From Blepharisma japonicum (Eukaryota; Ciliophora; Heterotrichea; Heterotrichida; Blepharismidae): 64,000 nucleotides of DNA. The translations under genes were made by a program, and so were the position numbers. Shown here in pieces: positions 36,970 through 41,221 of this stretch. Location of the stretch: NCBI GenBank assembly GCA_949751835.1, contig CATKHK010000011.1, forward strand, positions 62,327 to 126,326. Direction: 5' to 3'. Under the pieces are notes generated by a model. It was not told where the DNA came from and searched no databases. It was given only the letters and a program-made list of their open reading frames with translations. Each line of letters starts with the position of its first letter. Positions within the stretch are counted from its first letter, which is position 1.

Positions 36970-39393
36970 TTAATTTTCATCTATATCAGAATTAAAGGAC
37001 TCTTGGTATTCTTCTTTATGTTGGGGCTCTGGGTGATTTTCTATTTCTTCAACGGATTCTTCAAAAACGGCGCTGCCAGCTTCAATTTGACTGGCTTCTG
37101 GATTTTCGTAGATGTTTAGGTCTGTGAATGGGGTTCCTTCTTGCATGTCTTCTAGAGCTTGCTTGTAAGGTACTTTGTAGATAGACTGATTATAGCTGAA
37201 GAGCTGGGTCATCGCCCAGCTGAATTCTGATTTTTGGCTAATTATTCGGTGGATTCTGAGTTCTTCAATTATGACGTTCATAGGGACTAAATCATTTCCC
37301 TGGCTTTTCTCTTCAACTCTGGATCCAATAACATCAATTTCATCCATCAGCAGGCTTCTGAGCCTTCTAATAACTCCTTCTATATCAGATTTAGACAAAG
37401 GTTTCCAGTCTTTCAGCAAAAATCCAAGTTTTTCTTGTAATTCTTGTTTTGTCACAGTATCTTTTTCGTCAAGAATTGACAATATTAAAGCTTCTCTTAT
37501 TGAATCTTTTTCTATCAAAATATTTTCTGATGAAAATAATTTTTCTAATGAATCCTTATCATAATCTTCTAATTCTAAAAGAAGTTCAATATATTTTTTT
37601 TTATCCTTCACCACATTGTAATTAAATCGTGTCCCAATCTCACATGCGACTATTTCTGCCAAGCTTTTATCAATCTTCAAAATTCAGCTGTTATCTTTAT
37701 TATTGCTATCATATGAGGTATCAGAAATATCGTCCATTTCCATATTCGTCAACTCCTCTATGAGAACTGATACCAAAACCTGGTGATCGTTTTCTCCAAA
37801 TCTTTTCATAAAGCAGTCATACTCATTTTGGGATAAATTTATGGCTTCTTGTGATAAAACTGTCTGTAAATCGTCTAAATTGATGATCCCGATTTTATTT
37901 ATGTCAATGTCGCTTACCCATTCTTGGATGTCGAATTTGTTTTGCATCAAAAAATATTTTATTTTCATCAAAAATGAGATGATAAGGCCTTCTTCTTCTT
38001 TGGGGTTAAGTTTGGCGCTTTCCAGCTCAATTTTGTCGTCTGGGATGTAGACCTCTTCATTAGGATTTTCATATTCTCCGGGCTCTTTGTAGGATTCTTC
38101 TTCGTTATAGTCTTTTTCTATTGAGATTTCTTGAACTGGGTCATTTTTTTCTAGAAATTCTTCATGGTTTTCGTAGATTTCGCTGTCTTTTGATTTAATT
38201 TCGCTGTCTTTTGATTTAATTTCGCTTGATTCAGATTTTTTGTCACTTTTTATAGACAGGTCAAGCTTCTTATAGGAGTCTTCAAGCTTTATACCAGCTT
38301 TGGTAGAAGAGACTTCAAAATCTTTTTTGCCATTTATAAGCTCTTTTTGGACATTAACGAGCTCTTTTTTCTTTGTCTCTTCTAAAGCTCTGCTATTTAG
38401 GTCCTTTATTTCTTTTTGAAGCTCAGAGATTATTTTTTCTTGTCTTGTAGCTTTTTTTTCCATTGCACTCATTTCTAAATACAAGTTTCTGATTTCTTCG
38501 TCTTTACTTTTTACGGCTTCGTTTATCTTTTCTTCCTCTTCCCTTACCAAGCTGCTTTGCATCGCGACATCATTTTTTTCTGGTTTTAGCTCGTTTATCT
38601 TTCTTTCATCATTTAGCTGGTTTTTTAATTTTTCAAGCTCGTCTTTCATCATTTTTTTGCTCGCATCCTTCTCTGGGTCATTTTTCTTCAATTGCTTTTT
38701 CAAGGTTAAAATCTCTTCGCTTTTCAATGCATCAGAATCTTGGTAAAATCTTAAAGCTTGCTGTAACTGTTCCCTTTCATTTTGTAATTGTTCTAAAAAT
38801 CCTGAATTATCAGGCCAGGGCTTCTTATCATTGACAACTTCCATAAGCATTCTTTTCAGCCTCATGCATTCATTGGCATATTGCTGCAATTCTTCACCCA
38901 TTTCTTGCATTTTGGTAAGTCGTGTTGATCTTTTTAATAAATCAAGCTCTTTGTCTTTGGCTTGTAGCTCAGCTTTTACATCACGAATAACAGTTTTTAG
39001 GTTTTCTACCAGATGTGAGTTAGATTTTATATCTGGAGAAGTGCTTTGCTGGGTTTTTTCAAGCTCTTTTTCTAGCTGAGATAGTTTTGTCTTCATTTGA
39101 GTATTTTCTTCAGTAATAGAGTTGCAGAGCTGTTTTAAGATGAGGTTTTCTTCATATAAGCGTTCTTTGTCTATATTGATCTGCCTTGGCCTAATCCTGG
39201 AAACATATGTTGGATCTGAAAATGCCATTGAAGTCTTAGGAAGATAATTTGGTTTTGCAATTGGACGCATATCAGTCGATCCACGAATTTTAGGAGTACT
39301 TTGAGATTTAGAGATGGAAAATGGCCTTTGACTTAAAGGTTTGAGATTTATGTGATTGATCTGGTTTAAAGGCTGCCTGTATAAGTGTTACAT
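36970..39393 (-). CDS. Large coiled-coil protein with EF-hand-like region; start codon split by a 15-nt intron
   Basis: A TGA at 37684-37686 read as Trp joins two long open frames into one. The ATG at 39270 is in frame, but coding-like sequence (PLNQINHINLKPLSQRPF) continues upstream without an ATG until a candidate 15-nt intron (39377-39391). Splicing joins AT (39393-39392) to G (39376) and creates an ATG in frame, giving 802 aa. Residues about 75-360 are coiled coil; near 640 a stretch DIDINKIGIINLDDLQTVL is EF-hand-like. The C-terminus is acidic. The family is not recognised; a centriolar/ciliary role would fit. If the intron is not real the protein starts at 39270 (766 aa). Confidence 0.8.
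39377..39391 (-). other. Candidate 15-nt intron inside the start codon
   Basis: On the minus strand the sequence is GTAACACTTATACAG, with A at position 10. Before splicing the 5' side reads ATG-TAA (start then immediate stop); after splicing it reads ATG-CAG-CCT in frame with the long ORF. Confidence 0.65.
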
Positions 39394-39676: not shown

Positions 39677-41221
39677 ATGTATGAAACAGAATCTACTTGC
39701 CAAACCCCAACTCTCCCTAAAATTAAAAACACTCGAAGGCTCCAAATAGGCCCAGATACCGTGATAGGAATTCCTAGAAGTCTACTAAATTCACATTTAT
39801 CAATTCCTACAATTCCACTTACTAAAAGTGTACCATCATTAAGGATTTTCCATAATAACGCAGAGAACCTCATTGAGACAAAAAAGAACTTTATTGATGA
39901 ACTTATTCAAAGGTTTTCTACTGGGGAAAACACAGAGTTCATCGACATAGTCAACAAAGTCCAAAGGATAAAGCCTTTAGTCCTATTTTGGGAAATTAAA
40001 AGAACGGAAGGCTACATTCCTGAGGCACGAGTAGGCGCCACTATGTCAGTTGTAAATGGGAACATTTATCTATTTGGCGGATTATCCGGAGACAGAATAA
40101 ACGACATTAAAATGCTTGACTATAAAAATTATTATTGAGAAGGTGTAAACCCTTCTTCAAATTCAAATAAAATGCAAGAATACCCTGAGCCAAGGGTAGG
40201 GCACACTACAATTTCTTATAAAAATTCAATCGTGGTATATGGAGGAGGCGCAGCTTTTAATCAGACGTTACACATAAGGGCTTGTTTTCCGCTTATCCAT
40301 GTATTTGACACAGTGAATTTGCAGTGGCAAGCTCACAAACCACTTGGAAGACTTCCAGATGCAAGGAGAAATCATGGGGCAGTTTTAATTGGTAACACAA
40401 TGATTGTGTATGGTGGGATTGATAGTAACAGTAAGACCTTGAACGATTTGTGCGGTCTAAATTTGGAGTCTATGCAATGATTTTTAACAAAAGTAGAGAA
40501 AGGGTCCGCGAAGCCAGGTCCCAGACATTCATTTTCACTTACTTCAGTTTACCATAGCGGAATGCTGAGGCAGTTTACAAATGACATTTTTTCGTTGCCA
40601 AATGTATATGATGACGTTTTTACTCGAAAAACTTCAGGGATTTACTTATTCGGAGGAATGAATCATCATGGAGTAATTTTTAATGATTTATATATGCTGC
40701 AGCCTAAGCGAAAAAGTATAAGAGATGATGAAAGTATACTAAGATGAATTAAACTAGAACCCTCTGGAAATATTCCATTGCCTAGATATAACCACTCAGC
40801 AGTCCTCTGTGGAGGGCATTTATATATAATTGGTGGAAGAAATGACTCAACTTCATTTGAAACGACAGGCAATGAGGTCAGTGACATTTCTGCCTACAAT
40901 ATAGCCAGCTGTCGATGGGAAACTTTATTATTAAAAGGGCAAAAGCCTGGGCCAAGACATGGTGCTGCAGCTGTTTCAATTGGTAGTAAAATTCTTTATT
41001 TTGGAGGGATGGGTAAAGACCGTTTTTGCCAAACTTCATTATTTTCGTTAGAAACAGACCAAAATAATTCTCAAGAACTTATCAAGCTATGGGATGAAGA
41101 AGAAAACCATAAGAAAGCTAAAGAAGAAATCACTATGAAATTATTACAAAAAGGAAAATTACAGTCTGCAGCTAAGGTAGTTTTAACAAAAATTGGGATG
41201 AAAGCTTTAAGTGAAATATAG
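39677..41221 (+). CDS. Kelch-repeat protein
   Basis: A 514-aa protein; TGAs at 40136, 40478 and 40745 are Trp, two of them at the kelch-strand Trp position. From about residue 105 there are five or six kelch blades: GNIYLFGGLSGDRINDI, SIVVYGGGAAFNQTL, TMIVYGGIDSNSKTLNDL, GIYLFGGMNHHGVIFNDL, HLYIIGGRNDSTS and KILYFGGMGKDRF, preceded by PxPRxGHT/A-type strands. A short helical tail follows. Kelch propellers are interaction modules. The N-terminal 100 residues show no domain. Confidence 0.92.

Follow-up and report, generated by a model that had tools for sequence, protein, structure and literature searches.

Split start codons as such are already known, and the GTF format allows for them, so annotators are familiar with the kind. 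One clear precedent is the microsporidian RPL19 gene, in which a predicted intron interrupts the initiation codon (Nosema ceranae; PMC2685015). In heterotrich ciliates, about 95% of the introns are 15 bp long and the remainder 16 bp (PMC11441545). In the ciliates studied, introns whose length is a multiple of three generally carry in-frame stops (PMC5014332); 80.1% of the Paramecium introns should, by prediction, be visible to decay if retained (PMC5663052), and Blepharisma stoltei reads TGA as Trp (PMC9942806). The term "start codon" does not occur in the main text of PMC9942806 and PMC9942856, and a literature search, which covered few of the subscription papers, brought up no work on ciliates with split start codons; a preprint on ribozyme design was listed for using the phrase "split start codon".

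The window analysed here is a 64,000-nt stretch of Blepharisma japonicum DNA (C11:62327-126326 of a 45.2-Mb assembly composed of 224 contigs; G+C content of about 0.33). Its minus strand carries a gene encoding a coiled-coil-like protein, whose start codon is, judging from the sequence, almost certainly split by a 15-nt intron. Both RPL19 and the window gene have a predicted intron inside the initiation codon and an ATG that arises only after splicing; they differ in that RPL19 encodes a ribosomal protein of a microsporidian, whereas the present case is a ciliate coiled-coil gene with a 15-nt intron and a parallel in a kinase family. The intron of the window gene (15 nt, GT-AG) has the length and borders described for the 15/16-bp introns of heterotrichs in PMC9942806 (B. 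stoltei) and PMC11441545; the consensus A at position 10, which it shares, comes from the present analysis. Like the ciliate intron stops linked to nonsense-mediated decay (PMC5014332 and PMC5663052), it brings in an in-frame stop on retention, but in the window gene this stop adjoins the start codon itself.

Organization of the window gene

At the split start the minus strand reads ...AAACGTCCATAAAT^GTAACACTTATACAG^GCAGCCTTTAAACCAG, in the wider context ...CGT CCA TAA AT^GTAACACTTATACAG^G CAG CCT TTA... (Table 1). Removal of the 15 nt joins AT to the G at 39376 and opens a frame of 802 codons, which contains one internal TGA read as Trp and ends with a stop at 36970. The predicted N-terminus, MQPLNQINHINL, was already given in the initial annotation and was reproduced by translation of the spliced sequence. 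Immediately before the split ATG the frame has TAA (39396-39394), which the initial annotation did not mention, and a transcript holding exon 1 therefore has no usable in-frame upstream start. The main-frame ATG arises by intron removal; retained RNA also reads ATG at this place, followed by TAA, just as the initial annotation had stated. Downstream, whichever frame is read, the next ATG is at 39270; it lies in the main frame. The 150 nt preceding the split codon contain four ATGs, which would be relevant if the leader is long, and inspection of the leader by eye revealed no clear remnant of an older upstream start. A divergent gene is located on the plus strand (39677-41221), with its first in-frame ATG 283 nt from the split start; by eye, its repeats are putatively Kelch-like.

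Table 1. Features of the split start region and their positions in the window.
Feature	Position	Strand	Basis
Bases 1-2 (AT) of the split start codon; exon 1 ends here	39392..39393	(-)	sequence
Phase-2 intron of 15 nt, GTAACACTTATACAG, with A at position 10	39377..39391	(-)	sequence; paralogs have it at this site with equal length and phase
Exon 2: G of the start codon, 801 codons, stop; coiled-coil-like protein	36970..39376	(-)	translation
Met37, in frame, next ATG after the start-stop on unspliced RNA; possible fallback start	39268..39270	(-)	
ATG TAA start-stop when the intron is retained	39388..39393	(-)	

The N-terminal half of the predicted protein has a coiled-coil appearance, and a motif near DKERLYEEN is common to much of the family. 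The 376 C-terminal residues (36970-38100, minus strand) weakly matched EF-hand CFAP115 chains; the E-value of 2.8e-6 refers to the entire sequence, and none of the individual stretches passed by itself. One paralog (L010) matched EF-hand_1 (1.9e-10). A Pfam search with the whole window protein (E up to 1) gave no match. A ciliary role of this protein would be a guess.

Statistics at the locus

Taken by themselves, the statistics of the locus leave chance open. Near the 5' edges of 147 selected ORFs (264 kb) 61 GTN11AG stretches were found, and the only one forming an ATG was that of the window gene (1/61), a rate which is about the chance expectation. None of the other 146 selected ORFs has a split start of 15 or 16 nt. 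With a matrix trained on just 12 introns, 2.9% of 1,143 GTN11AG stretches equal or exceed the score of the window intron, which ranks fifth from the bottom among the training introns; three conserved family introns (L008, L010 and L012) also score poorly, and the training sets (12, then 9 introns from 264 kb) are too small. The lengths of intron-like joins obtained under relaxed settings (15 nt: 10, 16 nt: 9, 20 nt: 8, 11 nt: 7) do not form a sharp peak at 15 nt.

The initial annotation described the frame upstream of Met37 as coding-like. This frame is indeed open up to AT^G, which is the sole AUG start that includes it; its coding signal is weak. The scores of the 35 codons upstream of Met37 are matched or undercut by 24% of 1,196 known coding windows, and of the other stop-free windows (n = 3,232, including truly coding ones) 20% score as high or higher. 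The similarity of residues 1-36 to their counterparts in paralogs L003 and L004 was not significant in a shuffle test (p 0.20 and 0.18), nor was that to L011 and L009; for L013 the p value was 0.014. What sets the split start above chance is its conservation in paralogs together with its recurrence in an unrelated kinase family.

The coiled-coil family

The genome contains at least 16 genes of this family, a number on which searches with the window protein and with its paralog L007 agree. Seven of them (L007, L008, L010, L012, L014, L037 and L038) carry a 15-nt GT-AG intron in phase 2 of codon 6, with an ATG exactly five codons upstream, as in the 5' end of L007 (ATG TCT TTT CCT CAA AT^G); L014 has a second ATG further up. 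The split sixth codon encodes Met in L007, L008, L010 and L012, Ile in L014, and Leu in L037 and L038. The window gene has the family intron at the same site, but with TAA directly before AT^G. The same intron is also present in L013 (position 1467), where an in-frame ATG lies 28 codons upstream within poorly scoring sequence (-3.1, G+C 0.25) and the start is ambiguous; on account of this ATG, L013 was dropped as a second split start.

The identical place, length and phase in nine of the 16 genes indicate that the 15 nt are an inherited intron. The canonical 15-nt intron proposed by the initial annotation is correct in sequence and has conserved counterparts in the paralogs. If retained, eight of these nine introns place a stop immediately after the split codon, and all nine bring in an in-frame stop. 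Though the intron itself is conserved, the relatives of the window gene start upstream of it or at an uninterrupted ATG.

No such intron was found at the family site of L003, L004, L011, L016 and L039. The nearest paralogs, L003 and L004, have an uninterrupted ATG followed by CAG or CAA, which matches the M^Q of the window gene. In a phylogenetic tree the window gene groups with L003, L004 and L013 with support of 84/95, which is below the bar of 95/80, in a topology limited by the long branch and unsure place of L013, two short rows and an arbitrary root. In L011, whose start (ATG TCA) is uninterrupted, the G of the ATG is also the first base of a 15-nt GT...AG stretch, probably by chance. 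In two further genes, L009 and L015, the family intron site, which lies within 40 nt of the ORF start, is occupied by a 15-nt GT...AG stretch that can be read through; it lacks A at positions 3 and 10 and an in-frame stop, and its removal aligns the N-termini without gaps (by eye). In both genes it looks as though a former intron were now part of the coding sequence.

Genome-wide searches and the AMPK/SNF1-like kinases

The pattern of a stop followed by AT^GTAANNNNTANNNAG^G has 12 matches in the genome: the window gene and 11 others, whose contexts were read. A spliced frame of at least 200 codons was found in three of the 12 (the window gene, L043 and L048) vs. none of ten AA^G decoys (longest frame, 49 codons). 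The raw counts were 12 for AT^G vs. one for its reversed control, and ten for the AA^G decoy vs. 20 for its reversed counterpart. Other arrangements gave no split start: none among eight cases with the stop one codon further upstream (L045 among them), none among four A^TG cases, and none among the nine cases read (67-69 codons each) from two looser patterns with 23 and 7 matches, 19 of them new. On the sequence evidence, the AT^G split start looks rare genome-wide and concentrated in families.

L048 (C54:123.7k) was demoted as a split start: its paralog L083 (C49:208k) has AC^G, and the two share an upstream ATG-GGN stretch off the main frame. In both genes ATG GGA [AG]GC AA[AG] AT[AT] precedes a GTAAT...AAG stretch; in neither gene is this shared part in register with the conserved main frame, which may reflect a frameshift or the placing of the intron borders.

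L043 is an AMPK/SNF1-like kinase gene (Pkinase, E 2.6e-67; AMPK alpha, E 7.4e-75 from query residue 12, the Met not counted). It has TAA directly before AT^G, its homology begins almost at the start, and the next in-frame Met, at position 98, lies inside the kinase domain. In 11 close paralogs (59-79% identity), which are the best matches covering the N-terminal half among the 150 of 1,124 candidates that were scored, AT^G is split by 15 or 16 nt in seven and the ATG is uninterrupted in four. Together with L043, the split form occurs in 8/12 and the uninterrupted form in 4/12 of this sample, which excludes a partial match (C68:11804; query 85-208, 77%) and is not a total of such kinases.

The eight split-start kinases (L043, L072, L075-L078, L080 and L081, on contigs C12, C68, C5, C119, C13, C74, C26 and C6) have two features in common: (i) the upstream frame reaches a stop 0-21 codons back without an ATG, and (ii) the unspliced RNA reads ATG TAA. 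Their glycine loop was located by a script that matched its motif. Seven of the eight have no in-frame Met before this loop, and L077 has one at position 24; in these seven, an intact N-lobe would need splicing of the start codon, if initiation is at AUG.

Intron signal

The 15-nt introns of both families (n = 14) have A at position 10 in all cases, including the window intron; L043 was selected by a pattern with TA at positions 9-10 and the window intron was given, and the other 12 were not chosen for this base. Position 4 is A and position 13 is C or T in 13 of the 14 each. Position 3 is A in all 14, but the listing of the kinase paralogs required GTA. The count leaves out three 16-nt kinase introns as well as the L009 and L015 stretches, which are without these signals.

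Origin of the split start and alternative readings

The best explanation of the window gene, and a highly probable one, would be that an inherited intron is spliced constitutively and that the Met codon it splits has taken over initiation. An inherited spliceosomal intron of the heterotrich 15-nt type would have been located in phase 2 of a Met codon; loss of the upstream ATG in the window gene would have turned this internal codon into the start, and L003 and L004 would later have lost the intron and kept the start. Constitutive splicing would join AT to G, with normal initiation there, and RNA retaining the intron would be wasted or, at best, yield a protein from Met37. The intron's conservation, the stop that blocks the upstream frame and the kinase parallel are seen in the sequence; splicing in vivo, its constitutive character and the loss of the upstream start are inferred. 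The relic origin, i.e., the loss of an older upstream start, appears rather probable; the reverse history, in which upstream ATGs were gained in other family members, is possible.

It is highly improbable that the 15-nt stretch is not an intron, with transcription starting downstream of it and translation beginning at Met37 (39270). In its favour, Met37 lies in the main frame as the next ATG after the start-stop on unspliced RNA, and residues 1-36 are poorly conserved and weakly coding-like; this reading conflicts with the conservation of intron place, length and phase in seven family members with an upstream MS start, and with L003 and L004, which have no Met at the Met37 column and in which the sole Met preceding the conserved domain comes from the ATG that matches the split codon. 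The missing Met in these two paralogs also speaks against a pair of isoforms, a full-length protein made from spliced RNA and one shortened by 36 residues made from unspliced RNA by reinitiation after the start-stop. Since unspliced RNA offers the in-frame Met37 as its next AUG, the shorter protein is possible via reinitiation or leaky scanning, and reinitiation after start-stop uORFs is the subject of published work; we regard the two-isoform reading as quite unlikely.

The initial annotation saw in the start-stop a built-in check that might also regulate expression. A selected switch, in which controlled splicing of the start-codon intron would turn the protein on and off, could draw on the ATG TAA of retained RNA and on the design common to 8/12 related kinases, but it is very unlikely. 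With a GTAA donor, a phase-2 intron automatically has TAA adjoining the split codon; no special selection is required for the start-stop, and stops on retention occur in every one of the nine family introns and are general in introns of a length divisible by three in the ciliates studied; the notion of a check is thus not borne out. The absence of the intron from L003 and L004 and the uninterrupted start of four of the 12 kinases argue against an indispensable switch and weaken the case for regulation, and Met37 offers a way round in the window gene. The strict dependence of translation on splicing that had also been proposed is not supported for the window gene, in which the in-frame Met37 remains on unspliced RNA, and fits seven of the eight split-start kinases.

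As about half of its relatives in the genome retain the intron and the kinases, a separate family, have a like arrangement, the split start looks like a real and recurring feature, not an isolated case. A stronger view, according to which start-codon introns of Blepharisma are a recurrent inherited design, kept by most of the members read of an expanded AMPK/SNF1-like kinase family and arrived at independently in a coiled-coil family, with translation obligately dependent on the removal of one 15-16-nt intron and possibly tuned by it, is unlikely.

Implications

Gene finders that call the first ATG of the genomic frame would probably truncate or miss genes of this kind, and seven of the eight split-start kinases would in this way lose the beginning of their kinase domain. 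Each full-length protein made from such a gene would correspond to one splicing event, so that the fidelity of tiny-intron splicing would be readable at the protein level. The series of paralogs suggests how the relation of the start codon to an intron may shift during the evolution of a gene family.
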